Origin: Bradyrhizobium zhanjiangense
Lineage (GTDB): Bacteria; Pseudomonadota; Alphaproteobacteria; Rhizobiales; Xanthobacteraceae
Assembly: GCF_004114935.1 (NCBI RefSeq)
Contig: NZ_CP022221.1
Coordinates: 4,981,001 to 5,045,000, forward strand
DNA: 64,000 nucleotides
Reading direction: 5' to 3'
In this document: one piece after another, positions 787 through 28,878 of the stretch
Layout of the letters: each line of letters starts with the position of its first letter
Numbering within the stretch: the first letter of the stretch is position 1
Position numbers and translations under genes: made by a program
The notes under the pieces: generated by a model
The model's input: the letters and a program-made list of their open reading frames with translations, nothing else
What the model was told of the DNA's origin: nothing
The model's database searches: none

Positions 787-798
787 TACACCAGCGTA
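787..798. promoter_or_regulatory. Candidate MarR operator upstream of the regulator
   Basis: TACACCAGCGTA, one base from the inferred consensus TACRCTAGYGTA. It lies in the divergent gap between the MarR gene and the SDR gene at 966, nearer the MarR start. Confidence 0.6.
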
Positions 799-871
799 TT
801 TTAAAGGAAAGGTCGTGGGATCGGCTGAAAATTCCCCAATTAACTGCCGAGCCGCGGATTTACAAAAGAAG

Positions 872-883
872 TACGCTAGTGTA
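872..883. promoter_or_regulatory. Candidate MarR operator before the SDR/enoyl-CoA isomerase unit
   Basis: TACGCTAGTGTA, an essentially perfect copy of the palindrome inside a longer AGTAC...GTATTAG context. It lies 83 bases before the start at 966 and may overlap that promoter. Confidence 0.7.
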
Positions 884-965
884 TTAGTTCATAAAGAGGC
901 GCCCACTCGTTGGATCGCGAAAGCGCCCGCTTCATAGGAATTCAATCGCAGGAAGGAAGTCGCCC

Positions 966-1847
966 ATGTTCGACGCCGCCGTGCTCAAGGGAAAGCGCAT
1001 CTTGGTCACGGGCGGAGGGACGGGACTCGGCAAGGAGATGTCAGTCGGTTTCGCCGCCCACGGCGCTCACGTCTACATCTGCGGGCGGAGGAAAGAGGTC
1101 CTCGATCAGGCCGTGCGCGACATCGCCGAGCGGTCCGGGGGAACGGTTTCCGCGCTGCTTGCCAACGTACGCGATCCCGACAGCATCGAGGCTATGATGA
1201 CGGGCATCTGGGCCGAGGGTCCCCTTACGGGGCTCGTCAACAATGCCGCGGCCAACTTCCTTGCGCCTACCGAAAGCCTCTCGCCGCGGGGCTACGAGGC
1301 GGTTCGGTCGACGGTGATGGACGGCTCGTTCTATGCCTCGCTTGCCTGCGGCAAGCGTTGGATTGCCGCGGGCCTGCCAGGCAGCATCATCAGCAACCTC
1401 GTGACCTGGGTGTGGACCGGGTCCGCCTATGTGGTGCCGTCGGCGATGGCAAAGGCCGCCGTACACGCCATGACCATGTCGCTCGCGGTCGAGTGGGGAC
1501 CCAAGGGTATCCGCGTCAATGCCATCGCGCCTGGCCCATTTCCGACGGAGGGAGCGTGGGACAAGCTCAATCCGCTTGCCGAGACAGGTGTCGGTGCGAC
1601 CCAAGCGGAGGAGGTGCCGCTGCGCCGTTTCGGCAAGATGGACGAGCTGCGCAATCTCCTGATCTTCCTGATGTCGGATGGCTCGAGCTACATCACCGGT
1701 GACACGATCAGTATCGATGGCGGGCATCATCTGGCTGCGCCGAGCACTTTCGCCGGGCTTTCCAAGCTATCGCCTGCCGACTGGCAGCGTGCGCGCGAAG
1801 CCATTCAGGCCTCGGTCCAAAAAGAGAAGCAAGCGCGCTCAATCTGA
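966..1847 (+). CDS. SDR related to 2,4-dienoyl-CoA reductase
   Basis: The 293-residue SDR has the NADP(H)-type glycine motif TGGGTGLG at 15-22 and NNAAANF in place of the NNAG motif near 92-98. The usual YxxxK is altered: Lys163 is present but the Tyr position is Ser159. This, together with the LAVEWGPKGIRVN and PTEGAW segments, matches the peroxisomal 2,4-dienoyl-CoA reductase branch of the family, which also lacks the classical Tyr. It probably reduces a dienoyl-CoA during beta-oxidation of an unsaturated or ring substrate. GGAAGGAAG supports the ATG at 966. It begins a two-gene unit with the isomerase/hydratase at 1893, 45 bases downstream, and is preceded by MarR-type operators. Confidence 0.75.
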   Translation: MFDAAVLKGKRILVTGGGTGLGKEMSVGFAAHGAHVYICGRRKEVLDQAVRDIAERSGGTVSALLANVRDPDSIEAMMTGIWAEGPLTGLVNNAAANFLAPTESLSPRGYEAVRSTVMDGSFYASLACGKRWIAAGLPGSIISNLVTWVWTGSAYVVPSAMAKAAVHAMTMSLAVEWGPKGIRVNAIAPGPFPTEGAWDKLNPLAETGVGATQAEEVPLRRFGKMDELRNLLIFLMSDGSSYITGDTISIDGGHHLAAPSTFAGLSKLSPADWQRAREAIQASVQKEKQARSI

Positions 1848-1892
1848 ACTTCTGACGCGCGGGCCGCGAAGAAGCATCGAAGGGAAGAGCCG

Positions 1893-2693
1893 ATGGGACT
1901 GGCCATATCGACCAAGAGCTTTGAATGCACCATCGACGATGGTCTTGCTCATATCGTTCTGGATCAGTCCGCCCGCGGCAACCCGATTGACGGAGATTTT
2001 TGCCGTGAATTCGGACTGGCGATCGCCGAGCTGAGCGAGCGCGCCGACGTACGGGCCGTGCTTCTGTCCGCACGGGGGCGGCTGTTCAGCGTGGGCGGCG
2101 ACCTCATGGCGCTGGTGAAGCAGGGCGAAGCGCTGCCCGGAACGATAAAGGCCTGGACCGCCGATCTTCACGTCGCGCTCGCTAGGATGGTGCGCATGCG
2201 GGCGCCCGTCGTCGCCGCCGTCCATGGCAACGTCGCCGGCGGCAGCGTGTCGCTGATGGCGGCGGCAGACCTCGTCGTGATGGCGGAATCGGCGAAGATC
2301 TCGGCCGCATTCTCCAGAATCGGCTTCAGCCCGGACAGTGGGTCGACGACGACCGTCACGCGGCGTATCGGCATCGCGCGGGCAAAGCGCTTTTTCCTGC
2401 TCGGCGAGACGCTCGATGCGGCGACGGCACTGTCGCTCGGATTGGTTGATTTTGTCGTTCCGGCGGATGCCGTGCAGTCCGAGGCTACACGGCTTGCGAA
2501 GGAGTTCGCCGCCGGCCCGACCGAGGCATTTGGCGCAATCAAGCGTCTGTTTTCGCAAACGGCTGATCGATCGTTCGAGAGCCAGCTCGAGGAGGAGGCG
2601 CAGACGCTCGCCGCGATGTCGCGAACGGCCGACGCGCAGGAGGGCGTCAGGGCATTCGTCGAGAAGCGAAAGCCGGTGTTTGCTGGAAAATGA
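1893..2693 (+). CDS. Enoyl-CoA hydratase/isomerase, PaaG-like
   Basis: A 266-residue crotonase-fold protein. The oxyanion-hole elements are FSVGGD (65-70) and HGNVAGG (111-117). The active-site loop reads PDSG with Asp148, as in PaaG-type enoyl-CoA isomerases, instead of the paired glutamates of classical hydratases. Double-bond isomerisation is therefore more likely than hydration. It follows the dienoyl-CoA reductase-like SDR and precedes a CoA ligase, which suits processing of unsaturated acyl-CoA intermediates. The ATG at 1893 has a GAAGGGAAG ribosome site upstream. The exact substrate is unknown. Confidence 0.8.
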   Translation: MGLAISTKSFECTIDDGLAHIVLDQSARGNPIDGDFCREFGLAIAELSERADVRAVLLSARGRLFSVGGDLMALVKQGEALPGTIKAWTADLHVALARMVRMRAPVVAAVHGNVAGGSVSLMAAADLVVMAESAKISAAFSRIGFSPDSGSTTTVTRRIGIARAKRFFLLGETLDAATALSLGLVDFVVPADAVQSEATRLAKEFAAGPTEAFGAIKRLFSQTADRSFESQLEEEAQTLAAMSRTADAQEGVRAFVEKRKPVFAGK

Positions 2694-2735
2694 TCTACCG
2701 CCGGAAGCGACAAATTGGACCTTTGGTAGCAAATC

Positions 2736-2753
2736 GTACGCTGCCGCAACGTA
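2736..2753. promoter_or_regulatory. Degenerate operator-like half-sites before the CoA ligase
   Basis: GTACGCT at 2736-2742 matches one arm of the MarR palindrome, and CGTA at 2750-2753 could be a poorly spaced second arm. This is the weakest member of the set and lies about 60-77 bases before the ligase start. Confidence 0.3.
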
Positions 2754-2812
2754 TATCAATAAACGAAATAATCCGACCGCCGAAGCCGGAATAGGACACG
2801 ACAGAGGGAGAA

Positions 2813-4438
2813 ATGACCGTGGCCGCCGTCATACGAGACACGTCTCATGCGAACTTTCGGCAAGCCGGCTATTGGCTGGACAAGACCGTCGACCAGCTTC
2901 TGACCGAAGCCGTCGCAAAAACACCCGACAAGATCGCAATCGTCGCCGACCGCGCGGATCGCGAACACGCGCCGCGCTTGACCTACCGGGAGCTGAACGA
3001 TCTCGCCGATCGGGCCGCGAGCTCGCTGCTGCGGCTCGGTGTGGGGCGCGGCGACGTCGTCACCGTGCAACTGCCCAACTGGTGGGAGTTTGTCGTCACG
3101 GCGTTCGCCTGCAGCAGGATCGGCGCGGTCATGAATCCGGTGATGCCGATCCTGCGGGAGCGCGAGCTGGTCTACATCCTGAATTTCTGCCAGGCCAAGG
3201 TCTTCATCGTGCCGAAGACATATCGTGGCCTTGACTACGCCGCGATGGCGCAGGGCATGCGCGCCGAGCTGCCGCACCTGAAGCACGTGATCGTTGCCGA
3301 CGGCGAGGGCGACACGGGTTTTGAGAGGATGCTGCTATCGTCCGAGGCGGACGAGCTCCAGCCCGGCTTGCGTCCGGATGACATGGCTGTGCTGATGTTC
3401 ACGTCAGGCACGACCGGCGAGCCAAAAGGCGTCATGCACACGTCGAATTCGCTGATTGCATGCTGCAAGGCGTTGTCAGGTCGGTTCGGGCTCGATTCAA
3501 GCGACGTGCTGCTGGTGGCCTCTCCGGTGGGCCACATGACCGGCTATGCCGCGATCGTCCTGCTGTCCGTCTATCTCGGCGGCACGATGATCCTTCAGGA
3601 CATCTGGGAAGCCAAACGTGGTGTCAGCCTGATGGCTCATGAAGGTGTCACCTATACCGCGGCCTCGACGCCGTTCCTGAGCGACATCTGCGATGCCGTG
3701 AAGGGTGGCTCGCCGCAGCCGAAGTGTCTGCGGTCCTTCCTGTGTGGCGGGGCGCCGATTCCGTCGGTTCTCATCGAGCGTGCGGCCGGTGAGCTCGGTC
3801 TCAAGGTCTGCTCGCTTTGGGGCATGACCGAAGTCCTGTCGGGTACGTTGACGGAGCCGTCGCGCGCCGCCGAGAAGTCGGCGAGCACGGACGGCCGATC
3901 GCTGGAGGGGATGGAAGTCAGGATCGTCGACACCGAGGGCAATCCGGTGCCGGCGGGCGAGCCGGGCCGATTGTTGGTCCGAGGCGCCCAGATGTTCAAG
4001 GGTTACTACAAGCGGCCGGAGCTGCCGACCTTCGACAGCGATGGCTGGTTCGACTCCGGCGATCTCGCTTACATGGACGAGGATGGGTACATCCGGATTT
4101 CCGGCCGAGTGAAGGACATCCTGATCCGCGGCGGCGAGAATGTCCCCGTCGTCGAGATCGAGAACCTGCTCTACAAGCATCCCGCAGTGTCCGCAGTCGC
4201 GGTCGTTGGATTTCCGGATGCCCGACTGGGCGAGCGCGGCTGCGCTTTCATCGTTCCTCGCAGCGGCTGCACGATCGACCTGACGGCGGTGCAGGCCTAT
4301 CTGGGCGAGGCGAGGATGGCGAAGCAGTTCTGGCCGGAACGTATTGAACTTGTGGCCGAGCTTCCGCGCACAGCCAGCGGCAAGATCCAGAAATTCAAGC
4401 TGCGCGAGCTTGCCGCGGCAATTGCCGAAGCAAAGTAG
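2813..4438 (+). CDS. AMP-forming acyl-CoA synthetase, cyclohexanecarboxylate/fatty-acid ligase type
   Basis: The 541-residue ANL-superfamily ligase has the phosphate-binding loop TSGTTGEPKGV at about 197-207, the GWFDSGD and GRVKDILIRGGENV hinge motifs, and a C-terminal ASGKIQK with the catalytic Lys. It forms an acyl-adenylate and then the acyl-CoA in the cytoplasm. It is closely similar along its length to the second ligase at 28926; both share LPNWWEF and the NPVMPI/NPLMPI segments, so they are paralogs. The set of neighbours, including BadH and BadI, makes an alicyclic or branched carboxylic acid a plausible substrate, as for AliA of R. palustris, but specificity cannot be read directly. 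The gene converges on the enoyl-CoA hydratase at 4440 with a one-base gap. Confidence 0.85.
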   Translation: MTVAAVIRDTSHANFRQAGYWLDKTVDQLLTEAVAKTPDKIAIVADRADREHAPRLTYRELNDLADRAASSLLRLGVGRGDVVTVQLPNWWEFVVTAFACSRIGAVMNPVMPILRERELVYILNFCQAKVFIVPKTYRGLDYAAMAQGMRAELPHLKHVIVADGEGDTGFERMLLSSEADELQPGLRPDDMAVLMFTSGTTGEPKGVMHTSNSLIACCKALSGRFGLDSSDVLLVASPVGHMTGYAAIVLLSVYLGGTMILQDIWEAKRGVSLMAHEGVTYTAASTPFLSDICDAVKGGSPQPKCLRSFLCGGAPIPSVLIERAAGELGLKVCSLWGMTEVLSGTLTEPSRAAEKSASTDGRSLEGMEVRIVDTEGNPVPAGEPGRLLVRGAQMFKGYYKRPELPTFDSDGWFDSGDLAYMDEDGYIRISGRVKDILIRGGENVPVVEIENLLYKHPAVSAVAVVGFPDARLGERGCAFIVPRSGCTIDLTAVQAYLGEARMAKQFWPERIELVAELPRTASGKIQKFKLRELAAAIAEAK

Positions 4439-4439
4439 A

Positions 4440-5243
4440 TCATTGATCGGAGTAGGTCGGACTTCGTCGCTCGCGAAACGCGGCGACGGCTTCCGCGTGA
4501 TCATTAGTTTCCAGGAGGATGACCTGTTGCCGGTCTTCCATCATCAGCGCCGCGTCGAGGCTCGGCGCGTCGATTAGTGTGTTGAGCGCCTGCTTCGTCA
4601 TGCGCAGACCCATCGGAGACACGCGCAACATGTCTTCGGCGAGTTCGATGCCCTTTGTGAGAAGATCTTCAGCAGGCACGATGTCGCTGACCAGTCCAAT
4701 TGCCTTCGCCCGTTCAGCCTTGAGGAAGTGACCCGTGAGGAGAAACTCGGAGGCCACGGAGAGGCCGACGAGACGTGGCAGCAGATAGCCCGAGCCCATA
4801 TCACAGCCGCCGACACCGATGCGGATATAAGCCGCGTTCATACGAGCATCAGGCGCCGCGAAGCGAACGTCGCAGGCGAGCAGAAAGGAGAACCCGGCTC
4901 CACATGCCGCGCCATGAACGAGGCCGATGATCGGCTGCGGACATGACCGCATCAGGCGGATCACGCCGGAGTAGTTCTGCTGCATCTTGAGCTGGCGTTG
5001 AGGGCGACCCTTGCCGGGCGCGGCAAACGCATCCGATCCGAGTTCGGCGCCGGCGGAGAATTGAGGCCCGTTGCCGCGCAACAGCACGACGCGTGTCGTC
5101 GGCCGGTCGTGCAGGCCGGAAAAATAGGCGGTCAGTTCCACGATCATGTCGGGGGAGACCGAGTTGAGCTGTGCCGGACGGTTCAACGTCAGGATATCGA
5201 TCGCGCCGCGGCTCTCGACGGTGATGGTGCTCAGCTGCGCCAT
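4440..5243 (-). CDS. Enoyl-CoA hydratase/isomerase family protein
   Basis: A 267-residue crotonase-fold enzyme with oxyanion-hole segments SAGAEL (63-68) and HGAACGAGFSF (110-120). At the second acid/base position it has Asp148 in GGCDMGSG, the arrangement seen in dienoyl-CoA isomerase-like crotonases, so either hydration or isomerisation is possible. It could be the counterpart of BadK, which hydrates cyclohexene-carboxyl-CoA, but nothing proves that. It is transcribed divergently from the SDR at 5372, and the shared gap holds a degenerate copy of the operator palindrome. Confidence 0.75.
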   Translation of the reverse strand: MAQLSTITVESRGAIDILTLNRPAQLNSVSPDMIVELTAYFSGLHDRPTTRVVLLRGNGPQFSAGAELGSDAFAAPGKGRPQRQLKMQQNYSGVIRLMRSCPQPIIGLVHGAACGAGFSFLLACDVRFAAPDARMNAAYIRIGVGGCDMGSGYLLPRLVGLSVASEFLLTGHFLKAERAKAIGLVSDIVPAEDLLTKGIELAEDMLRVSPMGLRMTKQALNTLIDAPSLDAALMMEDRQQVILLETNDHAEAVAAFRERRSPTYSDQ

Positions 5244-5282
5244 GCTCGCTCTCCATCGTTCATTGTCTTTGATGTCATATAG

Positions 5283-5294
5283 TAATAAAGTGTA
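5283..5294. promoter_or_regulatory. Degenerate MarR operator between divergent ECH and SDR genes
   Basis: TAATAAAGTGTA has one good half (AGTGTA). The flanks TAGTA and GTGTACGAT also match the site at 7292-7303, which supports it as a real but weak site. Confidence 0.4.
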
Positions 5295-5371
5295 CGATCA
5301 TGGAGCGCAATGCCGTCGTTGCTTGCCGAAGAGAGAACGGCCGACGATACGACCTTCAAGGGAGACAGGAG

Positions 5372-6247
5372 ATGCCATACCAGTCCGTGTTCAGGCCGGA
5401 CCTGTTCAAGGGGCAGACCATCATCGTGACTGGTGGCGGGAGCGGGATTGGGCGCTGCACCGCTCACGAGCTCGCGGCCCTTGGTGCGAACGTCGCAATT
5501 CTCGGCCGGACGATGGAAAAGCTCGTCGAGGTACAGCGTGAGATCGAGGAAGATGGCGGAAGGGTGATGAGCCATGCCTGCGACATCCGCGATGAGGCCA
5601 TGGTGGTTGGCGCGATTGATGCCGTGCTCGCGCGTTATGGCCGTATCGACGGCCTGGTCAACAATGCCGGGGGGCAATTTCGAGCGCCGTTGAAGACGAT
5701 CTCGACCAAGGGCTTTGAAGCTGTCGTGCGCAACAATCTGACCGGCGGCTTCATTTTCATGCGTGAGGTCTATAATCGCTGGATGGAGGCCAATGGCGGT
5801 TCCATCGTGAACATCATCGCCGACATCTGGCATGGCTGGCCGGAGTTCGGCCACTCGGCGGCGGCTCGCGGCGGCATGCTCACCTTGACCGAGACGGCTG
5901 CATGCGAATGGTCGTCCTCAGGCGTCCGCGTCAATGCGGTCGCCCCCGGCGGCATCGTCTCCAGCGGCTTTGACACCTACACGCCGGAGATGCAGAAGAA
6001 GCTCCATGACTTCACCGCAGGCGTGCCGCTTCAGCGCTTCGGCACGGAAGCCGAGATATCGGCTGCAATCACCTACCTGCTGTCGCCGGCGGCCGCCTAT
6101 ATCACCGGATCCTGCGTCCGCGTCGATGGCGGGACGCCGAACGCCCGCACGACGTGGAAGCTCGAGCCGCACAACCGCAGTCTGCCATTCGAGGGCTTCC
6201 ATCGGGCGAAATTGCCCGAGGTGATGAAGCGGAAGGCCAGCGCCTAG
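5372..6247 (+). CDS. SDR related to trans-2-enoyl-CoA reductase
   Basis: The 291-residue SDR has TGGGSGIG at 20-27 and NNAG at 97-100. The catalytic region reads GHSAAARGG: Ser162 and Arg166 occupy the YxxxK positions. Loss of Tyr and Lys here matches the peroxisomal trans-2-enoyl-CoA reductase branch, whose equivalent segment also ends in an Ala-Ala-Arg-Ala type sequence. It probably acts on an enoyl-CoA or dienoyl-CoA. GGGAGACAGGAG precedes the ATG at 5372; a longer frame from 5300 lacks such a site. The C-terminal extension after the GG-T segment is longer than in typical SDRs. Confidence 0.7.
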   Translation: MPYQSVFRPDLFKGQTIIVTGGGSGIGRCTAHELAALGANVAILGRTMEKLVEVQREIEEDGGRVMSHACDIRDEAMVVGAIDAVLARYGRIDGLVNNAGGQFRAPLKTISTKGFEAVVRNNLTGGFIFMREVYNRWMEANGGSIVNIIADIWHGWPEFGHSAAARGGMLTLTETAACEWSSSGVRVNAVAPGGIVSSGFDTYTPEMQKKLHDFTAGVPLQRFGTEAEISAAITYLLSPAAAYITGSCVRVDGGTPNARTTWKLEPHNRSLPFEGFHRAKLPEVMKRKASA

Positions 6248-6258
6248 GGAAGGACAGC

Positions 6259-7272
6259 CTAGTCAACGGCGATGATCAGCTTGCCGTGGTTTTCACCGCG
6301 GTAAAGTCGTGCGATTGCGCCGGGGGCATGCTCCAGCCCCGGGAGGACCTCCTCGTCGTGGACGATCTGGCCGGCAAGCGCGAGGTCGGCGAGGCGCTTG
6401 GCGGCCGCGTCGAATTCGGCGAGATGATCGAAGATGATGAAGCCCGACCATCGCAGGCGGCGCGTGAGAACCTCGCGCTCGGGGCGCGGGCCGCTCGGTA
6501 CGGGGGTCCAGGACGCGTTCGCGGCCGTGCCGCACTGGATGATGCGTCCGCGTAACCGCATGGTCCGGATGGCGGCATCGGCGATCGCGCCACCGGTGTT
6601 GTCGAAGAAGATGTCATTTCCTTCCGGACACGCCGCGCGAAGGGCCGCGCCGAGGTCGGCGGCCTCGCGGTAGTTGATCATGTCCTGATAGCCATACCGG
6701 GCTTTGGCCTGCGTAATCTTGTCGGCGGAACTGGTGAGCCCAACGGCACGGCATCCCGCAATCCTCGCGAGCTGACCGACAAAGCTGCCGACGCTGCCGG
6801 CAGCCGTCGATACCAGGACATGCTCGCCTGGCTTGGGATCACCGAGGCCGTGAAAGGCAAGATAGGCGGTCAGGCCGTTCATGCCGAGCACGCTCAGGTT
6901 GGCGCTGAGCGGGAGGGCGGACGGAACAACGCGCCGCAGAACGGCGTCGGGTGCGGCGACGCAATAGCGCTGCCAGCCAAACCACCCGTAAACGAACTCG
7001 CCTGCTCGAAATGCCGGCACATTGCTTTCGACGATCTTGCCGACAGCAAGGGCGCGCATCGGCGTGTTCAGCGGCACCGTCGCGCTGTAGTTCCCCTCGT
7101 CATTGGCCCATCCGCGCTGCGCCGGATCGACCGAGAGATAGCGGTTTTCGATCAGGATCTCGCCGTTGCCGGGCCCGGCCACGGGCTCCGTCACGAGTGA
7201 AAAATGCTCGGCTTGCGGTATCCCACTGGGCCGGGCCGTCAGCCGAACCTGTCGATTTTCGCGCGGGGACAT
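6259..7272 (-). CDS. Zinc-free medium-chain NADP-dependent oxidoreductase (LTB4 dehydrogenase/CurA-like)
   Basis: The 337-residue protein has a GroES-like N-terminal half without zinc ligands and a nucleotide-binding AAGSVG motif at 157-162 inside VLVSTAAGSVGSFVGQLA. The N-terminal RQVRLTARPSG and the RGW segment are typical of the prostaglandin/leukotriene reductase branch, which reduces alpha,beta-unsaturated ketones or enoyl groups with NADPH. It may saturate a double bond of a ring or side-chain intermediate. It is divergent from the MaoC-CitE-dehydrogenase operon, and a clear operator palindrome lies just upstream of its start. Confidence 0.8.
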   Translation of the reverse strand: MSPRENRQVRLTARPSGIPQAEHFSLVTEPVAGPGNGEILIENRYLSVDPAQRGWANDEGNYSATVPLNTPMRALAVGKIVESNVPAFRAGEFVYGWFGWQRYCVAAPDAVLRRVVPSALPLSANLSVLGMNGLTAYLAFHGLGDPKPGEHVLVSTAAGSVGSFVGQLARIAGCRAVGLTSSADKITQAKARYGYQDMINYREAADLGAALRAACPEGNDIFFDNTGGAIADAAIRTMRLRGRIIQCGTAANASWTPVPSGPRPEREVLTRRLRWSGFIIFDHLAEFDAAAKRLADLALAGQIVHDEEVLPGLEHAPGAIARLYRGENHGKLIIAVD

Positions 7273-7291
7273 GAGCGATCCTCATAATTAG

Positions 7292-7303
7292 TACGCTTGT
7301 GTA
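7292..7303. promoter_or_regulatory. Candidate MarR operator in the divergent oxidoreductase/MaoC promoter
   Basis: TACGCTTGTGTA, one base off the consensus, flanked by TTAG and CGATATG. It lies 20 bases before the oxidoreductase start and 96 before the MaoC start. Confidence 0.65.
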
Positions 7304-7398
7304 CGATATGAGTATACGGTAGAAGTTGGTCGGGAGACAAGGACATCGCGGCGGCTGCGGCCGCCTCACCCTGCAAGATACAGTAAGAGGCAAGCAAC

Positions 7399-7851
7399 AT
7401 GGCGGGGCTCTATTTCGAGCAGTTCTCGGTCGGACAGACGTTCGTCCACGAGATCCGGCGCACAGTGACGGACATGGACAACATCCTGTTCTCGTCGCTG
7501 ACCTACAATCCGGCCGCGGTCCATATCGACCACGAATATGCCAAGGGCACCGAGTTCGGGAAGCCCCTGATGAATTCGATCTTCACGCTCGGTCTGATCA
7601 TCGGCTTGTCGGTTCAGGACACGACGCTGGGGACCACCGTCGGCAATCTCGGCATGGAGGACACAAAATTCCCGCGACCGGTATTTGCCGGTGACACGCT
7701 ACGGGCCGAGACCAAGGTGATTGCCGTCAGGGAAAGCAAGTCGCGTCCGACGCAGGGCATCGTGACGTTCGAGCATCGCGGCTTCAATCAACGCGACGAG
7801 GAAGTGGTCTATTGCCGCAGGAGCGGGTTGATGATGCGGAGGCCGACATGA
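7399..7851 (+). CDS. MaoC-family (R)-specific hydratase-like protein
   Basis: A 150-residue single hot-dog-domain protein of the MaoC group. The segment YNPAAVHIDHEYA near residues 36-48 is a variant of the hydratase-2 motif, followed by the substrate-loop FGKPLMNS. It resembles mesaconyl-CoA hydratase-like proteins found beside CitE-type lyases and probably hydrates an enoyl-CoA. Its stop overlaps the ATG of the lyase gene by four bases (ATGA at 7848-7851), so the two are translationally coupled. This supports a hydratase-then-lyase sequence. Confidence 0.8.
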   Translation: MAGLYFEQFSVGQTFVHEIRRTVTDMDNILFSSLTYNPAAVHIDHEYAKGTEFGKPLMNSIFTLGLIIGLSVQDTTLGTTVGNLGMEDTKFPRPVFAGDTLRAETKVIAVRESKSRPTQGIVTFEHRGFNQRDEEVVYCRRSGLMMRRPT

Positions 7852-9909: not shown

Positions 9910-9930
9910 CGCGCTTGAGAAGCGCGTCAG
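9906..9930. terminator. Bidirectional hairpin between converging acyl-CoA dehydrogenase genes
   Basis: A perfect 11-bp stem (9906-9916 with 9920-9930) with a GAG loop overlaps the 3' ends of both convergent genes. There is no long T tract, so it may act as a weak or bidirectional terminator. Confidence 0.65.
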
Positions 9931-11072: not shown

Positions 11073-11095
11073 GTTTGTCGGCCACGAGTTGAGAG

Positions 11096-12025: not shown

Positions 12026-12032
12026 GGGGCCG

Positions 12033-12827: not shown

Positions 12828-12845
12828 GGCGTGTCCTCGCGCAAG

Positions 12846-13660: not shown

Positions 13661-13667
13661 GAGGGGG

Positions 13668-16277: not shown

Positions 16278-16304
16278 TCGGCGCCTCAGGAAGGAGAAAT
16301 AGTC

Positions 16305-19234: not shown

Positions 19235-19269
19235 CGAAGGTCTCCGTTCGCTTTGTTCTGCCGTTTACG

Positions 19270-19291
19270 CCTGCCGGGCGTACCCGGCAGG
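19270..19291 (-). terminator. Hairpin between binding-protein gene and thiolase gene
   Basis: A perfect 9-bp GC-rich stem (19270-19278 with 19283-19291) and 4-base loop follows the binding-protein stop. It could terminate or attenuate, leaving more binding protein than thiolase transcript. Confidence 0.5.
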
Positions 19292-19302
19292 CCATCGCCA
19301 CC

Positions 19303-20499: not shown

Positions 20500-20541
20500 G
20501 CCGGCTCCCATATCGCTTCTTGTTTTACATGCGAAAATCAG

Positions 20542-20553
20542 TACACTATAGTA
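20542..20553. promoter_or_regulatory. Candidate MarR operator before the binding-protein gene
   Basis: TACACTATAGTA, within a near-perfect GTAC...GTAC palindrome, differs from the consensus in the second half-site. It lies in a 268-base divergent gap that also contains the site at 20700. Confidence 0.5.
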
Positions 20554-20699
20554 CGATATCTTGGAAGTCGAAAATGCGGATTGTGCCAGTCGCTGCGCCC
20601 CTCGGAATGTATCGCGCTGCAACTAGGAGACCGCCGGCTGGTGATCCGCATTTCGGCGCGACCTTCGCCTTGACGCCACCGCGATTGTGGTTCAGATAG

Positions 20700-20711
20700 T
20701 ACGTAAGCGTA
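20700..20711. promoter_or_regulatory. Candidate MarR operator before the phosphotransferase gene
   Basis: TACGTAAGCGTA has both outer half-sites (TACG and CGTA) with an altered centre. It lies 57 bases before the ATG at 20768. Confidence 0.5.
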
Positions 20712-20767
20712 CGAAATGTCGGGCGCGTCGCAAGCTGTGCGACCGCTCGCCGGCGAAGGGAGGGAAC

Positions 20768-21971: not shown

Positions 21972-22838
21972 TCAGGCCGCCGTTAGCCGGCATTCGCCGG
22001 GATCGATCACCATAGTGTGCCGCTCCGCCGCCCACGCCCTGAACCTGATGACATCGCCTTCCTCGAACATGTCGATCCGGATCGTGTCGCCGGGAAATGC
22101 GGGCGCGACAAATCGTGCTGCCATCGCGTCGATCAGCTCGGGACGACCCGAAGCGTAACGCTTCAAGATGGCGCGGCAGGCGAGGCCCAGCGTGTTAAGG
22201 CCGTGCGAGATCGGGCGGTCCAAGCCGGCCTCGCGAGCCACCGCCGGGTCGGCGTGGATTGGCATGTAGTCGCGGCTGACAAGGCGATACAGCAAGGCGG
22301 CCTGGTACGGCGTTCGATAGGCGATGCTGGCGCTGGGTCTTCCGTCGCTACCAATCGGCGCAATCGCGGCGGGCGGCAAACCGTAGTTGCCGCAGCCGCC
22401 GTCGCCGCGCAGGAATTCCGTCGCCCGAAGGGTTGCCAGTCGCTCGCCGCTGGCGGCGTCGAACAGCTCGGTATCGAAATAGAGGAGGGCGCCGCGCGTC
22501 CGTCCCTTGTCTTCGACCGCGCTGACACGGTGCTCGGCGCGGATGGATGCGCTGACCGGAAGCGGGCGATGCAGCGTGAGGCGCTGCTCGCCATGCAGGG
22601 CCTTGGTCCAGGCAATCCCCGTTTTGGGCTCGGCGATCCACAGCGGCGGCCAGCCGAGCGTCACGCTCATGCTGGGCACGGCGCGTTGATCGCGGCCTTC
22701 GTACACATAGGCCAATTCGTCCTCGTCCAGCGGATCGTCGCCCATGCCAAGGCCGAGCGCGTAAAGGGCGGAATCGCGCCAATCGTAGGTTTGGTGGATC
22801 GGCGCGAAGCGCCGGGCGACGACATGATCAAGGTCCAT
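21972..22838 (-). CDS. Double-hot-dog MaoC-type enoyl-CoA hydratase 2
   Basis: The 288-residue protein has the length and layout of eukaryotic-type hydratase 2: two hot-dog repeats and a C-terminal motif SRDYMPIHADP with Asp190 and His195. The usual Asn before the Pro is Met (M192 in DYMPIH), a mild deviation. The DRPISHGLNTLG segment matches the family. It would hydrate trans-2-enoyl-CoA to the (R)-3-hydroxyacyl-CoA. It is divergent from the liv operon with two operator copies between. Confidence 0.8.
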   Translation of the reverse strand: MDLDHVVARRFAPIHQTYDWRDSALYALGLGMGDDPLDEDELAYVYEGRDQRAVPSMSVTLGWPPLWIAEPKTGIAWTKALHGEQRLTLHRPLPVSASIRAEHRVSAVEDKGRTRGALLYFDTELFDAASGERLATLRATEFLRGDGGCGNYGLPPAAIAPIGSDGRPSASIAYRTPYQAALLYRLVSRDYMPIHADPAVAREAGLDRPISHGLNTLGLACRAILKRYASGRPELIDAMAARFVAPAFPGDTIRIDMFEEGDVIRFRAWAAERHTMVIDPGECRLTAA

Positions 22839-22928
22839 AGGGGGCTCCGGTAGTGGTCGCGCGCCTCTGACGAGACGCCGCTGTGCACGAGATGCCGCAG
22901 CGAAGGGTCCCGATTTGGATTTGCGGCG

Positions 22929-22940
22929 AACACTAGTATA
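22929..22940. promoter_or_regulatory. Candidate MarR operator 1 before hydratase 2 and liv operon
   Basis: AACACTAGTATA, two bases from the consensus. The 308-base gap 22839-23146 holds this site and a second one 15 bases away; nothing else was recognised in it. Confidence 0.55.
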
Positions 22941-22943
22941 TGA

Positions 22944-22955
22944 TAAACCAGTGTA
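22944..22955. promoter_or_regulatory. Candidate MarR operator 2 before hydratase 2 and liv operon
   Basis: TAAACCAGTGTA is followed by CTAAT; the right arm is intact. With the neighbouring copy it forms a tandem pair spaced 15 bases, about one and a half helical turns. Confidence 0.5.
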
Positions 22956-23146
22956 CTAATCGAGCGTCGAACTCGAGGTCGTCCGACAGGACGGGGAAAT
23001 GCTGAAGGCCGGCACGGAGCGCGATTGAAACCCGCTGCGGGGGCCGGGCAATGGCAGGAGGGCCCTTTGCGAGGTCAAGCGCGCAGGCTGGCGCATCGGA
23101 CGGCCGCATGCCGTTGCGGAATGCACCCGGGCAGGAGACCGCTGCC

Positions 23147-24004
23147 ATGATCGCGCTGCTGATCGCGAATTCGCTGGCGCTTGCGTCATTACTGATCATG
23201 CTGTCGAGCGGGCTCGCCTTGATCTACGGCCTGCGCGACGTCATCAATTTCGGCCACGGCGCGATCTACATGCTCGGCGCCTATCTCGGCTACACGATTG
23301 CTCTCGTCGGTGGATTCTGGCTGGCGCTGCTGCTCGTTCCGATCCTGCTGGCGCTTGTCGGAATAGCCTTCGAATATCTGGCGCTACGGCCGCTGCAGCG
23401 ACGCTCGCATATCGAAGTCGCGCTGGTCACCTTGGGCCTGGGCATCATCCTCGGCCAGATCATCATCTACCTCTACGGCGGCGAGGCTCGCAGCGTCGAT
23501 GCGCCGAAAATCCTGTCCGGCTCCGTGACCATCCTGCACCTGTCCTATCCGGTCTATCGTCTCTTCCTGATCGTGATGGGGCTCGGGTCCTGCGCGCTGC
23601 TCGCCTTGTGGCTGCGATGGACGGCGTCGGGGCTGTATGTCCGCGCGGTCAGTCAGGATCCGTCGGTCGCGCGCATGATGGGCATCAACGCCGACCGCCT
23701 GAGCCTGCTGGTGACCAGCCTCAGCACGGCGTTCGCCGGCATCGCGGGCGTGCTGGCCGGACCCTATTTGTCGGTCGATCCTGGAATGGACGTCGTGATG
23801 ATCGTGAACTGCCTGATCATCGTCGTGATCGGCGGCACCGGGAGCATCGGCGGCGCAATCATAGCAGCCTTGCTGTTCGGCTTCGTTCAGGTCGCAGGTT
23901 CGGTGTTTCTGCCAAATCTTGCGGCGCTGGTGCCCTACATCCTGCTGATGGTCGTGCTGCTGATCGCGCCGGGTGGCATCGGACGCGGGAGGGTGCTGAG
24001 TTGA
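23147..24004 (+). CDS. livH: Branched-chain-type ABC transporter permease LivH
   Basis: The 285-residue integral membrane protein has the LivH N-terminus with a hydrophobic helix, GLALIYGLRDVINFGHGAIYMLGAYL (residues about 17-42), and a C-terminal GGTGSIGGAIIAALLFG EAA-like loop. It forms the inner-membrane channel with LivM. AGGAG lies ten bases before the ATG at 23147. The regulon's tandem operators lie about 200 bases upstream. First of four co-directional, mostly overlapping transporter genes. Confidence 0.85.
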   Translation: MIALLIANSLALASLLIMLSSGLALIYGLRDVINFGHGAIYMLGAYLGYTIALVGGFWLALLLVPILLALVGIAFEYLALRPLQRRSHIEVALVTLGLGIILGQIIIYLYGGEARSVDAPKILSGSVTILHLSYPVYRLFLIVMGLGSCALLALWLRWTASGLYVRAVSQDPSVARMMGINADRLSLLVTSLSTAFAGIAGVLAGPYLSVDPGMDVVMIVNCLIIVVIGGTGSIGGAIIAALLFGFVQVAGSVFLPNLAALVPYILLMVVLLIAPGGIGRGRVLS

Positions 24005-25035
24005 GCAACGGCACGATGACCGACGACCTGCATGCATCTGCGACGGCGACGGTCGGCGGCCCGTTGCCGCGGCTTTCGCTCGCCATTGTGGTCGGCCTGA
24101 TCGGGCTTGGCGCCGGTGCCGTCGTCCCGACCTATTTCGCCAGCGATTTCGTGCTTCGACTTGGCAGCGAAGGCCTCCTGCTGGGCTTGCTCGCGCTCAG
24201 CGTCGCCTTCCTGATGAACCAGGCCGGCCTCGTTGCGCTCGGCGCGGCCAGTATCTACGGCGGCGCCGGATATCTGTTTGCGATCGGCATGAGCGATTGG
24301 GGCTTGACGCCGACTGCGGCGCTATGCGTCGCGTTCCTGATCCTTCTTGCCTATTCCGCCGTGCTCGGCGCATTGATCGTCAGGACCAATCCGCTCGCCT
24401 TCATGATGCTGACGCTCGCCGCCGGCGAAATGATCAGTCATGCCGTTCTGCTCGAGGGATTGCGCGACTATACCGGAGGGGCAGACGGGCTGGTTGTTCG
24501 GACCACCGGAACGGTCCTCGGCATCGACGCGGTTCGCTTTGCCGATCCCGCGCAATTCTGGTCGCTGGCCTGGGTCGTCACCGTCCTGGTCGGACTGACA
24601 TTCTGGGCCATCGCACGTTCCCGTCTCGGCGCGGTACTCCGCGCCATCAGGGAGAACGAGGAACGCATGCGCTTCTCGGGCTTCAATACCTTCCTGCCAA
24701 GGCTGATCGGGTATGTGCTCGTGAATATCGTGGCTGCGATCGCTGGATTCCTGCATGTGCTCAATGCCGGTTTCGTCTCGCCGGAGAGTCTGGGGCTGTT
24801 CGTCAGCACCAATACGCTGGTCGCCGCGCTGATCGGTGGCATCTCCGGTTCGCTCGGCCCGATTCTCGGCGGGCTGATCTTCTCCTTTGCGCAGGACGAG
24901 TTTGGCGCGCGCGGGCTCACGCAGCTTCTGACCGGTGTTGCGATCGTCGTATTCATTGTCGTGTTCCCGCGTGGTGTCGTCGGCGGGCTGTCCGGCCTTT
25001 CGAAGCGGCTCGGCTCGTGGCGGGAGGCGTCCTGA
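24001..25035 (+). CDS. livM: Branched-chain-type ABC transporter permease LivM
   Basis: The 344-residue (or 339) membrane protein has about eight hydrophobic segments, the LivM motif VALGAASIYGGAGYLFAIG, and the cytoplasmic RSRLGAVLRAIRENEERMRFSG loop that contacts the ATPases. I chose TTG 24001, which overlaps the livH stop and has GGGAGGG at a good distance; the ATG at 24016 is the alternative and lacks a good ribosome site. Pairs with LivH. Confidence 0.8.
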   Translation: MSNGTMTDDLHASATATVGGPLPRLSLAIVVGLIGLGAGAVVPTYFASDFVLRLGSEGLLLGLLALSVAFLMNQAGLVALGAASIYGGAGYLFAIGMSDWGLTPTAALCVAFLILLAYSAVLGALIVRTNPLAFMMLTLAAGEMISHAVLLEGLRDYTGGADGLVVRTTGTVLGIDAVRFADPAQFWSLAWVVTVLVGLTFWAIARSRLGAVLRAIRENEERMRFSGFNTFLPRLIGYVLVNIVAAIAGFLHVLNAGFVSPESLGLFVSTNTLVAALIGGISGSLGPILGGLIFSFAQDEFGARGLTQLLTGVAIVVFIVVFPRGVVGGLSGLSKRLGSWREAS

Positions 25036-25036
25036 C

Positions 25037-25735
25037 ATGCTCACGATCGAAAAACTGTCGGTGAGCTATGGCTCGGTGCGGGCGTTGACCGATGTCGATC
25101 TCGAGATCCGCGGTAATGGCCTGCTCCACGGCATCATCGGTCCGAATGGCGCCGGCAAGTCCACGCTGCTTGATGCGATCTGCGGCCGACGGCGTCCGAC
25201 CTCCGGCCGAGTTCGGTATTGCGGCGAGGATATCACGCGGCATTCGGTCGCCTGGCGCCGTCGGCAAGGCATGGCGCGATCATTCCAGCGCACCAGTATC
25301 TTCCAGGATCTGACCGTGCACGAGCAGCTGCAGCTCGTTGCGCAACATCTCGGCGACGACCGGGTCGGCGACGTCATTGAGGTCATGGATCTCGGCGGCT
25401 ATCTCGACCAGAAAGCCGGGCGCATCGCCTATGGCGTGCAGCGGCGGGTCGACGTCGCGCTGGCCCTGATCGGGCGTCCCCGCCTTCTCTTGATGGACGA
25501 GCCGGGCGCCGGTCTCTCGGCCACGGAGACGTTGCGCCTGTTCGAGCATGTGCGCGATCTCGTCCGCGAGCGCAGGATCGCGGCCGTCGTGGTTGAGCAT
25601 GACGTCGACGCGGTGTTCGCCTGCTGCGGCATGGTCACCGTGCTCGATCTCGGACGGCACCTTGCCACGGGGACGCCTGAAACAATCCGCGCTGACCATC
25701 GCGTCATCGCGGCGTATCTGGGGACCGCGGCATGA
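25037..25735 (+). CDS. livG: ABC transporter ATPase LivG
   Basis: The 232-residue ATPase has Walker A GPNGAGKST (35-43) and Walker B LLLMDEP near 161. The signature motif is degenerate, reading YGVQRR instead of LSGGQ, a pattern also seen in other LivG proteins, which often read YGQQR. It starts one base after the livM stop and overlaps livF by four bases. Confidence 0.85.
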   Translation: MLTIEKLSVSYGSVRALTDVDLEIRGNGLLHGIIGPNGAGKSTLLDAICGRRRPTSGRVRYCGEDITRHSVAWRRRQGMARSFQRTSIFQDLTVHEQLQLVAQHLGDDRVGDVIEVMDLGGYLDQKAGRIAYGVQRRVDVALALIGRPRLLLMDEPGAGLSATETLRLFEHVRDLVRERRIAAVVVEHDVDAVFACCGMVTVLDLGRHLATGTPETIRADHRVIAAYLGTAA

Positions 25736-26427
25736 GCGCGCTGCGGATCCACTCGCTGTTCGCCGGCTATGGCGCCTCGACCGTGCTGCGCGGCATCGAC
25801 CTGACGGTCGAAGAGGGCGAGTCGGTGGCGTTGGTCGGCCGCAACGGCGCCGGCAAGTCGACGCTGCTGCTGTCGGTCTTTCGCGAGACGAATATCTCGT
25901 CCGGCGAGATCTGGGTTCGCGACCGCCGGATCGATGCCCTGCCGGGCTATACGGCTGCCAAGCTCGGTATAGCGATCGCGCCGCAAGGACGGCGCGTCCT
26001 GCCGAACCTGACCGTGAAGGAGAACCTGCTGCTGGGTCGATCGACCGGCAGGGCAGGGTACTGGACGCTGAAGACCGTCTATGAGCTGTTCCCGGTGCTC
26101 GAGGAGCGCGCCGATCGGCTGGGCACGATGCTGAGCGGCGGCCAGCAGCAGATGCTGGCGATCGGCCGCGCCCTGATGGCCAACCCGAGCCTCATTCTGC
26201 TCGATGAGCCATCGGAAGGCCTTTCTCCCGTTCTGATCGATGGGTTGGTGGACACGCTCAACAGGATTCGCGGTGCCGGGACCGGCGTACTCGTGGTCGA
26301 GCAGCATCTCAATCTCGTCAAGCGCGCGACTGACCGGTTCGTCATTCTTGCAAAGGGCGAGGTTGTCGGTTCGGGGGCGATCGGCGCCATTGGCAGGCCG
26401 GAGAACCAGACGCTCATGGCACTCTAG
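25732..26427 (+). CDS. livF: ABC transporter ATPase LivF
   Basis: The 231-residue ATPase has Walker A GRNGAGKST (36-44), an intact LSGGQQQM signature near 134-141, and Walker B LILLDEPSEGLSP. It powers the importer together with LivG. The ATGA overlap with livG indicates coupled translation. The binding-protein gene begins 33 bases downstream. Confidence 0.88.
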   Translation: MSALRIHSLFAGYGASTVLRGIDLTVEEGESVALVGRNGAGKSTLLLSVFRETNISSGEIWVRDRRIDALPGYTAAKLGIAIAPQGRRVLPNLTVKENLLLGRSTGRAGYWTLKTVYELFPVLEERADRLGTMLSGGQQQMLAIGRALMANPSLILLDEPSEGLSPVLIDGLVDTLNRIRGAGTGVLVVEQHLNLVKRATDRFVILAKGEVVGSGAIGAIGRPENQTLMAL

Positions 26428-26460
26428 CTCAAAAGCGGGATCAACGAAGGAGGGAGGAAC

Positions 26461-27678
26461 ATGAAAAAATCATCCATGCGGCTGGCTTTCGGCATGCTGC
26501 GCGCGGCGACCATCGGCGCAACGATGGCCGTCGCCGCCGCGACCGCAGCCTCGGCCGAGGACACGGTGAAGATCGGCGTTCTCCTGATCGATAGCGGACC
26601 GCTCGCCGGCCTGAAGGACACCCAGGTCAAGGCCGTCAACCTCGCGATCGAGCAGATCAACGCCGCAGGTGGCGCGGCGGGCAAGAAGCTGGAGGCGACC
26701 TTCATTTCCTATCCCGGCACGCCTGATACGGCGGTGGACGGCGCCACCCGCGCCGTCCAGAAGGAGGGGGCAATGTTCATCACCGGCATGGACACGTCCG
26801 CTGTCACGCCTGCGCTTCAGGCCAAGCTTCCGGCGCTGAAGGCTTTGATGCTGGAGGTGATGGCCAATGCCGACGGACTGACCGGAAAGAACTGCTCGCC
26901 GAACTACTTTCGGGTCAATGCCAACGACTCCATGATCATGGGGACGTTCAGGGAATTCCTGAAAGATCAGGGCATCAAGAAATGGGACATCATCGCGGTC
27001 GACTACGCCGCCGGACGCGACTCCGCGGACAAGTTCAAGGCGCTGGTGACCTCGCAGGGCGGAACGATCGGAAAAACCCTGTTCTCGCCAAACGGGACGC
27101 CGGATTTCGGGGCCAAGATTTCGGAGTTGGGTGCGGACCCGGCCGACGGCCTGTTCGTGACGATCTTCGGCAGCGACGCGATCAACCTCGCCAAGCAGCA
27201 GCAGCAGTTCGGGCTGTTCAAGAAGTACAAGATGGTGCTGGGCAACTCCTTCGTGATCCCGCAGACCCTGGCGGCGCAGGGCGAGACCGTGCTCGGCGTC
27301 TATCAGAATATCGGTTTCGTGGCCGGCTTCCCCGGCGCGCAGGCCGAAGCCTTCGTGAAGGCGTACAAGGAGAAATACAACGGCGAGCTTCCGCCCTACA
27401 CCAGCGCCGATCAATACGCCGCCATTCAGCTGATTGCCGCCGGGCTTCAGAAAGCGAACTCGACCGACATCAACGCGGTTCGCGCCGCGCTGTCCGGCTT
27501 GAAAACCGAAACGGTGCTCGGCGATGTCGAGATCCGTGCAGCTGACCATCAGGTTGCGCGGCGAATGGCGATCAGCCAGATCGTGATGGGTCCGGAGGGC
27601 AAGCCGATGTACCAGATCAAGAAAATCGAGCCGGGACAGGACATCATCCCGCCCGTCGATCCCGCCTGCAAGATGTGA
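26461..27678 (+). CDS. Periplasmic substrate-binding protein of the liv operon
   Basis: A 405-residue type I binding protein with a long signal peptide (cleavage probably after the ASA near residue 32), then DTVKIGVLLIDSGPLAGLKD. It ends the livHMGF operon and is the likely dedicated partner of this transporter. It is only distantly like the binding protein at 19303; two different receptors for one transporter may widen its substrate range. GAAGGAGGGAGG precedes the ATG. Confidence 0.88.
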   Translation: MKKSSMRLAFGMLRAATIGATMAVAAATAASAEDTVKIGVLLIDSGPLAGLKDTQVKAVNLAIEQINAAGGAAGKKLEATFISYPGTPDTAVDGATRAVQKEGAMFITGMDTSAVTPALQAKLPALKALMLEVMANADGLTGKNCSPNYFRVNANDSMIMGTFREFLKDQGIKKWDIIAVDYAAGRDSADKFKALVTSQGGTIGKTLFSPNGTPDFGAKISELGADPADGLFVTIFGSDAINLAKQQQQFGLFKKYKMVLGNSFVIPQTLAAQGETVLGVYQNIGFVAGFPGAQAEAFVKAYKEKYNGELPPYTSADQYAAIQLIAAGLQKANSTDINAVRAALSGLKTETVLGDVEIRAADHQVARRMAISQIVMGPEGKPMYQIKKIEPGQDIIPPVDPACKM

Positions 27679-27700
27679 TGCACCGACGCTATCGATCTCA

Positions 27701-27737
27701 TGTCGCTCGTGAGCCCAAATCTAGGCCACGAGCGACA
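27701..27737. terminator. Bidirectional hairpin between converging binding-protein and alcohol dehydrogenase genes
   Basis: An 11-bp stem TGTCGCTCGTG (27701-27711) pairs with 27727-27737, and partial pairing continues inward. It includes the last codons of the minus-strand dehydrogenase gene. Confidence 0.6.
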
Positions 27738-28740
27738 CCTTGCCAAACTGCGCCCCGGAGGCGAGACGGGCAAGCGCCGCAGGAGCGTCTGCCATCCGGA
27801 ACGACGAGTCGATCACCGGCCGGACCAAACCGCGATTGAACACATCGAGCACCTGGCGGAACTCCGCGATGCTGCCACCCGTCGAGCCATAGATCTCGAG
27901 CTGGCGGATGAATACGCGCTGCAGATCGGCCGGTGGATTCGAGCCAGTCGTGGCACCGCAGGTGACCAGCCGGCCGCCACGACGCAAGGAACGCAGCGAT
28001 TCACCCCAGCTGGCTTCGCCGACGCTGTCGATCACCATGTCGACACCGCCGCCGCTCATCTGCTGGACAGCGGCCGACACCTTGTCGTTCCGATAGTTGA
28101 CGCCGCCATCCGCGCCCATCGCGAGGGCCCTGGCGATCTTGGCGTCGCTCGAAGAGGTGACGAAGACGCGGGCGCCGACGAGCTTTGCAAGTTGCAGGCA
28201 GGCTACCGCGACGCCGCCACCGATGCCGACGATCATGACGCTTTCTCCGGGCTGCAAGGCGCGCTTGCCGAACAGCATCCGCCAGGCCGTGAGATGGCCC
28301 GTCATCAGCGCACCCGCCGCCACCAGATCAGCATCATCAGGCAGGGGAAAGAAGCAGGCGCTGGGCATCGCAATGTAGTCGGCGAAGCCGCCGTTGCGAT
28401 GCTCGCCCATGATCTTGACGTTCTCGCAAAGCGGCTGGTCGCCGGCCAGGCAGTATCGGCACCTGCCGCAAAACGCCTCGGAGAAGAGCACCGCCTTCAT
28501 GCCCGGCTTCAGGCCGCTGCCGGGCGCGGCCTCGACGATCTCCCCGGCAGCCTCGACCCCCATCACCTGCGGCAGTGTGTGGGTGATGCCGCCGCCATTG
28601 TCGCGCATGTAGAGATCGACGCGATTGACCGAGGATGCGGCCACCTTGAGCAGCGACTCGCCCGCAGCCGGTGTCGGATCGGGGAAATCGCGCCAGGACA
28701 CGCCGTCCGGTCCGCGCCGTTCCAGCACTGCCGCCTTCAT
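27721..28740 (-). CDS. Zinc-dependent medium-chain alcohol dehydrogenase family protein
   Basis: The 339-residue protein has a GroES-like domain with structural-zinc cysteines in FCGRCRYCLAGDQPLC (about 90-105) and the nucleotide-binding GIGGGVAVACLQLA. The catalytic-zinc Cys/His pair is not obvious: the position that normally begins CG-H reads SSVNRVD, so it may be a quinone-oxidoreductase-like reductase rather than an alcohol dehydrogenase. I place the start at ATG 28740 after GGGAGGAG. It is divergent from the CoA ligase operon at 28926, and operator-like sites lie between. Confidence 0.75.
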   Translation of the reverse strand: MKAAVLERRGPDGVSWRDFPDPTPAAGESLLKVAASSVNRVDLYMRDNGGGITHTLPQVMGVEAAGEIVEAAPGSGLKPGMKAVLFSEAFCGRCRYCLAGDQPLCENVKIMGEHRNGGFADYIAMPSACFFPLPDDADLVAAGALMTGHLTAWRMLFGKRALQPGESVMIVGIGGGVAVACLQLAKLVGARVFVTSSSDAKIARALAMGADGGVNYRNDKVSAAVQQMSGGGVDMVIDSVGEASWGESLRSLRRGGRLVTCGATTGSNPPADLQRVFIRQLEIYGSTGGSIAEFRQVLDVFNRGLVRPVIDSSFRMADAPAALARLASGAQFGKVSLVA

Positions 28741-28777
28741 GGTCTCCTCCCTGCTTCCGGTCGCACCGCAAAAGTGA

Positions 28778-28789
28778 TGCACTAGCTCA
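28778..28789. promoter_or_regulatory. Degenerate MarR operator near the alcohol dehydrogenase promoter
   Basis: TGCACTAGCTCA retains nine of twelve consensus positions including the central CTAG. It lies 38 bases before the dehydrogenase start. Confidence 0.35.
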
Positions 28790-28866
28790 CGAAGCGTCAA
28801 GCGCAGTGCACCGCTAGAGATAAAATTACCGGCCTGATTTGGTGTTGCAGTTCACTTCAAATATAA

Positions 28867-28878
28867 TACACTAGCGCA
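28867..28878. promoter_or_regulatory. Candidate MarR operator before the second CoA ligase operon
   Basis: TACACTAGCGCA is one base from the consensus and lies 48 bases before the ligase start. It is the rightmost site found. Confidence 0.65.

Follow-up and report, generated by a model that had tools for sequence, protein, structure and literature searches.

One MarR-family regulator and a conserved palindromic operator probably control a large ring-acid catabolic block in Bradyrhizobium zhanjiangense

We analysed a 64,000-nucleotide stretch of Bradyrhizobium zhanjiangense DNA (contig NZ_CP022221.1, positions 4,981,001 to 5,045,000; hereafter the window), in which a palindrome recurs in the promoter gaps of a catabolic block. 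The MarR-family protein encoded at 214–738 is very probably an autorepressor of about 35 window genes and several genes to the left of the window, released by a CoA-thioester of the pathway that it controls. An earlier note on this DNA had proposed that this protein commands about 30 genes through a 12-bp palindrome. The regulator–operator pair and its regulon are new, though of a known kind and not a new type of system.

Alignment of the sites extends the palindrome to 18–20 bp, about ATAGTACRCTAGYGTACTAT, so that the earlier note was right about its recurrence and short on its length. Sites were scored in bits with a symmetric matrix built from 11 starting sites (12 in its final form) and scanned over 123 kb, where negative coordinates lie to the left of the window and gene limits come from a simple in-house gene predictor. 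Left out one at a time, the 11 starting sites scored between 10.6 and 27.9 bits. The final matrix finds 13 matches of at least 15 bits, all intergenic and all between -7 and 37 kb (null mean 0.05 over 20 shuffles), and 14 of at least 13 bits, one of which (-4109) falls in a predicted gene (null mean 0.1, 20 shuffles); this match lies near the end of that gene, and its counterpart in genome G002 is intergenic. Null means for gaps only are 0.14 (at least 13 bits) and 0.07 (at least 15 bits) over 100 shuffles. Each of the nine divergent gaps between -5811 and 28926 carries a site of at least 20 bits, and the other four of the 13 gaps in the scanned stretch have none above 11.4 bits. Three control regions gave no match of 13 bits or more, and the 37–64 kb gaps, described earlier as free of sites, indeed contain no match reaching 10 bits. 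Such a scan had been set beforehand as the test of whether the palindrome marks the promoters of the block; with matches inside genes and in control regions near zero, and all 13 matches of at least 15 bits intergenic and specific to the block, the claim holds more strongly than it was made.

Allowing up to two mismatches, the 12-mer TACRCTAGYGTA matches the window 10 times against 1.46 expected (standard deviation 1.25; none of 100 shuffles reaches 10). These are the nine strong sites of the earlier note and one at 19796, which was rejected as a chance match, lying within a gene and scoring only 5.9 bits by the longer matrix. Genome-wide (9.34 Mb, a single contig) the pattern occurs 155 times, about 1.06 per 64 kb, which makes the window roughly ninefold enriched. 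The 18-mer WAGTACRCTAGYGTACTW, with up to three mismatches, has four matches inside the window against 0.03 expected and seven in the genome, five of them within 31 kb (window coordinates -2108 to 28881). The top matrix score belongs to a copy with one mismatch, TAGTACACAAGCGTACTA, 2.1 kb to the left of the window, and another site stands at -5760; given these two sites, the earlier note covered only part of the block, and its 28-kb extent, though that of a real block, misses at least 5.8 kb left of the window. Three sites that it had ranked as weaker proved unequal: the one at 5283 is strong (22 bits), the one at 28778 is weak (10.9 bits here, 13.8 in G002), and the one at 2736 is weak here and reaches 22.2 bits in G001 and G024.

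When only distinct rows whose site reaches 10 bits are counted, a restriction that somewhat overstates conservation, the mean frequency of the major base in the operator columns at 5283 is 0.92 against 0.57 and 0.61 in the flanks (25 rows), and at 7292 it is 0.94 against 0.63 and 0.72 (26 rows). Rows without such a site numbered one at 5283, eight at 7292, one at 14877, two at 20542, two at 20700, one at 22944, none at 28867 and one at -2105.

The regulator itself exceeds the cut-offs of the MarR family domains PF12802 (55.8 bits, cut-off 27) and PF01047 (47.4 bits, cut-off 24.6). Its AlphaFold2 model, of moderate confidence (mean pLDDT 67.4, pTM 0.53), has the helix and strand order of a winged-helix fold with long terminal helices, the recognition helix at 65–78 and the wing at 81–97. 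A structure search gave 296 PDB matches at E ≤0.001, with MarR, SlyA, MepR, FabT and others among the 50 listed, and those listed fit loosely overall (TMq 0.45–0.58, rmsd 8.7–12.8). At the start of the recognition helix, DVGKV is invariant in nine aligned sequences, and GKV is retained in nine of nine distant relatives (as DLGKV in locus L105 and EVGKV in L114). Dimeric binding to a palindrome of 16–20 bp is a mark of the MarR family, and the conserved palindrome here measures 18–20 bp. Two operators lie in the gap of the marR promoter. By Pfam, this MarR is the only regulator among the 35 predicted genes at 214–36328, as had been claimed; the claim does not extend to the left of the window, where a TetR gene lies 9.9–10.6 kb away.

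Matching sites accompany relatives of this MarR beyond the genus. Its nearest named relatives by gene are Bradyrhizobium species, and the 37 named loci obtained for it include Mesorhizobium, Reyranella, Marinovum, Mesobacterium, Gemmobacter and Roseicyclus; 35 were scanned, all but L116 (34% identity) and L117 (25%). The named loci are not independent of the numbered genomes, since some contigs, judged by their equal lengths, seem to occur in both sets. All 35 scanned loci (MarR identity 54–96%) have matches of at least 13 bits, and 183 of the 184 matches are intergenic, with gaps making up 85 of the 695 kb. The nine most distant loci (MarR identity 54–66%) hold 48 matches against a mean of 0.96 (maximum 7) for 200 column-permuted matrices, four intermediate loci hold 13 against 0.80 (maximum 6 of 200), and the other 22 hold 123 against 4.38 (maximum 21 of 60). 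Although gene order differs in the distant loci, sites are present in most of the gaps that separate divergent units of the enzyme families seen in the window. Upstream of marR itself, a site of at least 12 bits starts at 41–82 bp in 28 of the 35 loci.

Within the genus, MarR orthologs (86–98% identity) occur in six of 35 other genomes of a first set, and all six have sites in the gaps beside the conserved genes. When 36 genomes were searched with the operator pattern, the seven with the MarR had 4–10 matches each and the 29 without it 0–2, G010 excepted. Across 265 genus genomes, the MarR (E 1e-60) was found in 35 and a close BadI-like protein (E 1e-140) in 33, all 33 of them MarR-positive; two genomes have the MarR without such a protein, namely G206, which is assembled in 980 contigs, and G248, whose MarR is only 61% identical. 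One genome, G118, has two marR copies (on C1, 91%, and on C20, 90% identity to the window MarR), each accompanied on its contig by a close BadI-like gene, and C20 additionally bears a 59% BadI-like copy.

Palindromes also precede more distant MarR genes. In 22 of 23 of these (31–51% identity over the matched part), many of which look mutually orthologous and so are not independent cases, a palindrome of at least 12 bits lies 28–76 bp before the aligned stretch, from whose start, not the start codon, the distance is counted; only L022 has none. Most are of the ATAAGCTAGCTTAT or TAACCTAGCTTAC kind, and we regard those upstream of the SlyA-like paralogs (L016–L038) as probable autoregulatory operators. 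The sites of the window are tied to the MarR at 214–738 because they recur at the loci of its relatives, persist in stretches in which no close TetR relative was found and have sister palindromes upstream of paralogs. On such comparisons, the operator set, its intergenic placement, its conservation and its link to this MarR are supported, as is the proposal that one MarR commands some 30 genes, the units starting at operator gaps containing 35 predicted genes.

From these observations a switching scheme can be proposed. A MarR dimer would bind ATAGTACRCTAGYGTACTAT at the marR promoter and at each divergent gap of a block that starts at least 5.8 kb left of the window and ends at about 36.3 kb. 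With no substrate present, it would block the promoters of the block, including its own, by promoter occlusion and autoregulation. Once the AliA-like ligases have activated an imported alicyclic (cyclohexane-ring) acid, a CoA-thioester of the pathway would release MarR, as proposed from the examples of BadR and CouR, and the units would switch on together. What we infer in this scheme is that the protein physically binds the sites, that it represses and does not activate, that a CoA-thioester is the inducer, and which class of substrate is involved.

It is unlikely that MarR binds the sites yet acts as an activator or dual regulator and not as a plain repressor. In favour of this reading, a review table gives BadR the label R/A (PMC10458429), SlyA is described as exerting both negative and positive regulation (PMC5797941), and several gaps here hold two sites; the predicted -10 elements that overlap or adjoin the operators suit occlusion, if weakly. 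We find it very improbable that the palindromes are bound by the TetR protein encoded left of the window (-10602 to -9919). Its gene does lie within the same chromosomal block, and two look-alike palindrome pairs elsewhere in the genome adjoin TetR genes, but G003 and G031 have operator sites, and the 55 kb fetched there shows no TetR relative exceeding 60% identity, while G001 and G024 retain the TetR and the site in its operon's promoter gap has decayed. Least credible of all is a reading of the palindromes as some dispersed repeat or structural element instead of operators, which draws on the 155 genome occurrences of the 12-mer with two mismatches; five of the seven 18-mer matches in the genome fall within the block, and the sites sit in promoter gaps and track MarR across genera despite rearranged gene order.

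Several points nevertheless weigh against autorepression by this MarR through these sites. Repression and activation are inseparable from sequence alone, and the overlap with promoters is weak evidence: in seven of seven window gaps tested (no control run), at least one top-ranked predicted -10 element overlaps or adjoins the operator, which is itself TA-rich, and the promoter predictions are weak. The reversed pattern is commoner genome-wide than the operator pattern (1129 against 155 for the 12-mer, 13 against seven for the 18-mer), so totals alone tell little, and the evidence consists in the clustering and location of the sites. The matrix was trained on this genome's own sites, which makes its scores here partly circular, and the relatives share ancestry. 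The site before AliA-like CoA ligase 1 is weak in this genome; the marR gaps of L107 and L108 lack a site of at least 12 bits, although other gaps there have sites; and G010, without the MarR, has 10 pattern matches, seven of which are copies of one different sequence. Lastly, the promoter gap of a dioxygenase operon on the left flank has an operator here and in G002 that is decayed in G001 and G024 (9.8 bits), which leaves the membership of this operon in the regulon uncertain; it may answer to its own TetR.

Among described systems, BadR of Rhodopseudomonas palustris and Aromatoleum sp. CIB is a MarR repressor of the bad-ali genes, induced by CoA-thioesters of the pathway (PMC9795900). Here, too, a MarR regulator adjoins AliA-, BadH- and BadI-like genes, and the analogy with BadR drawn in the earlier note therefore stands for function; it fails for identity, both in the regulator and in the operator. 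The BadR operator is given as CAATnnATTG and its targets as one operon (R. palustris) or two (CIB) (PMC9795900), whereas the window block carries sites in nine divergent gaps; CAATnnATTG has no match in the window, where only 0.77 would be expected by chance. By kinship of sequence, the window MarR is not BadR, sharing 29–33% identity with the BadR-type MarRs of the genus, a comparison outside which the named R. palustris BadR lies. Those MarRs come from five loci with BadI relatives at 63–70% identity (L124–L127, L129), four of which (L124, L126, L127, L129) have a predicted MarR of this kind and one (L125) none. All five have a CAATNNATTG site, which lies in the gap preceding the BadH/BadI unit except in L126, where it stands elsewhere. 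The window matrix has no match at 13 bits in these loci or in L128 (59% BadI relative), where permuted matrices average 2.44.

SlyA is the closest solved relative by sequence, and its proposed site (TTAGCAAGCTAA, or TTAN6TAA; PMC5797941) is a 12-bp palindrome of similar layout; the half-sites differ, TACRCT in the window against TTAGCA for SlyA, and the window MarR scores 65.4 bits on the SlyA equivalog, below its cut-off of 120. CouR of R. palustris, a MarR repressor inhibited by p-coumaroyl-CoA, has couA and couB as its named targets (PMC10458429), compared with a block of about 35 genes here. IadR, which belongs to the auxin (iad) locus and is known from Bradyrhizobium japonicum (PMC9613470, PMC11630574), is likewise a MarR at a Bradyrhizobium catabolic locus. 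An auxin locus was considered for the window and rejected: the IadR structure 7kym is missing from the 19 PDB sequence matches obtained at E 1e-6, and indolepyruvate oxidoreductase, which is named for iad, is absent from the Pfam results of the block. Five spellings of the 12- or 14-mer operator were not found in 5.39 million open-licence full texts, and among the titles listed by literature searches on the regulon and close topics none describes it.

Other MarR genes and palindromes were seen along the way. Second MarRs are present in L107 (53%) and L108 (58% identity to the window MarR), and G085 has a second MarR gene (L131:8593-9081; 45% identity to the window MarR) inside a run of acyl-CoA dehydrogenase (ACAD), BadH-like and BadI-like genes. 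Two divergent gaps next to TetR genes each hold a pair of look-alike palindromes (G000:C1:434689 and 434732; G000:C1:1309413 and 1309448; L003, L004), which are probably TetR operators of other systems. Near-identical AAGTTTGCTAGTGTCCTT copies stand at seven places across the chromosome of G010 and are probably part of a dispersed repeat.

The operators and genes are collected in Table 1, with block functions assigned by Pfam and NCBIfam. All 35 predicted genes at 214–36328 lie in units that start at operator gaps, if the weak one before AliA-like CoA ligase 1 is included. Both AliA-like ligases and the BadH- and BadI-like proteins score below the curated bad-ali equivalog cut-offs (Table 1), and the best AliB score in the block is 231.5 against a cut-off of 575.35; this points to another alicyclic acid, and not cyclohexanecarboxylate itself, as the probable substrate. 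On the left flank, up to 15 further genes, including the ring-hydroxylating dioxygenase operon, lie next to the sites at -5760, -4109 and -2105. This operon (G000:C1:4967819-4975189, window -13181 to -5811, locus L002) has its own TetR gene and contains ferredoxin reductase, alpha, beta, ferredoxin, SDRs and two extradiol-type dioxygenases. An ibuprofen-type (ipf) pathway was considered for the thiolase/OB-fold pair and the dioxygenase; the main text of the MPO218 paper names no MarR. Degradation of steroid rings was a further pathway considered. The nitroreductase gene at window 34480-35150 occupies two reading frames here and one in G002 and G017.

Table 1. Regulator, operators and genes of the catabolic block (window coordinates)
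Feature	Coordinates	Strand	Remarks
MarR-family regulator, 174 aa, divergent from SDR966	214..738	-	Pfam MarR_2 and MarR above gathering scores; proposed repressor
Operator O1, marR promoter (12-mer at 787)	784..801		19.7 bits
Operator O2, SDR966 side of marR gap (12-mer at 872)	869..886		21.0 bits; 1 mismatch to 18-mer
SDR (2,4-dienoyl-CoA reductase-like) and enoyl-CoA hydratase-type protein	966..2693	+	
Weak or decayed operator upstream of AliA-like CoA ligase 1	2734..2770		8.2 bits here; 22.2 bits, same place, G001 and G024
AliA-like CoA ligase 1	2813..4438	+	706 bits, cut-off 792.3
Enoyl-CoA hydratase-type (-), SDR (+), zinc-binding-dehydrogenase-type oxidoreductase (-)	4440..7272		
Operator between ECH4440 and SDR5372	5280..5297		22.0 bits
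Operator between 6259-7272 dehydrogenase and MaoC-CitE-ACAD operon	7289..7306		27.5 bits
MaoC hydratase, HpcH/HpaI (CitE-like) lyase, ACAD	7399..9909	+	
ACAD, BKACE, BadI-like, BadH-like, ACAD	9927..14849	-	BadI 420 (cut-off 467.6), BadH 308 (cut-off 431.2)
Operator for ACAD/BadH-like/BadI-like/BKACE/ACAD operon and ECH14979 operon	14874..14891		20.4 bits; second copy 14942, 16.5 bits; also in orthologous gaps
Enoyl-CoA hydratase-type protein, CoA-transferase family III	14979..17495	+	
OB-fold (ChsH2-type) protein, thiolase, periplasmic binding protein	17697..20499	-	
Operator, SBP19303-thiolase-OB side	20539..20556		22.9 bits
Operator, APH20768 side	20697..20714		23.0 bits; also in orthologous gaps
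APH-type phosphotransferase	20768..21940	+	
MFE2-type hydratase	21972..22838	-	
Double operator (12-mers 22929, 22944), MFE2-type hydratase / branched-chain-type ABC transporter operon	22926..22958		15.9 and 22.0 bits; also G002, G017
Branched-chain-type ABC transporter: two permeases, two ATPases, binding protein	23147..27678	+	
Zinc alcohol dehydrogenase-type protein	27721..28740	-	
Operator between ADH27721 and AliA-like CoA ligase 2 operon	28864..28881		25.6 bits; adjoins predicted TTGGTG-17-TATAAT promoter
AliA-like CoA ligase 2, 2 SDR, ACAD, APH, nitroreductase fragment, CoA-transferase III	28884..36328	+	Ligase 662 bits, cut-off 792.3

With slightly more doubt than confidence, we put forward a wider picture in which one local MarR commands an unusually large regulon (about 35 window genes, up to about 50 with the left flank) for a ring-acid pathway not yet described, and in which the regulator–operator pair has been kept from Bradyrhizobium to Mesorhizobium and to marine relatives such as Marinovum. 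Two bad-like modules of the genus would then stand under two MarRs with unlike operators (CAATATATTG, GTACRCTAGYGTAC), and together with the SlyA-like paralogs (ATAAGCTAGCTTAT) would form a natural series of change in recognition-helix specificity. Early descriptions of MarR regulators gave them very small regulons (PMC10458429), and a whole block seems to be under the command of the one described here. For an apparently undescribed Bradyrhizobium ring-acid pathway, knowing the regulator, a precise operator and the co-controlled genes would make the substrate findable by induction; alongside the BadR-type and SlyA-like relatives in the genus, they may serve as regulator–operator pairs for studying how MarR specificity changes.

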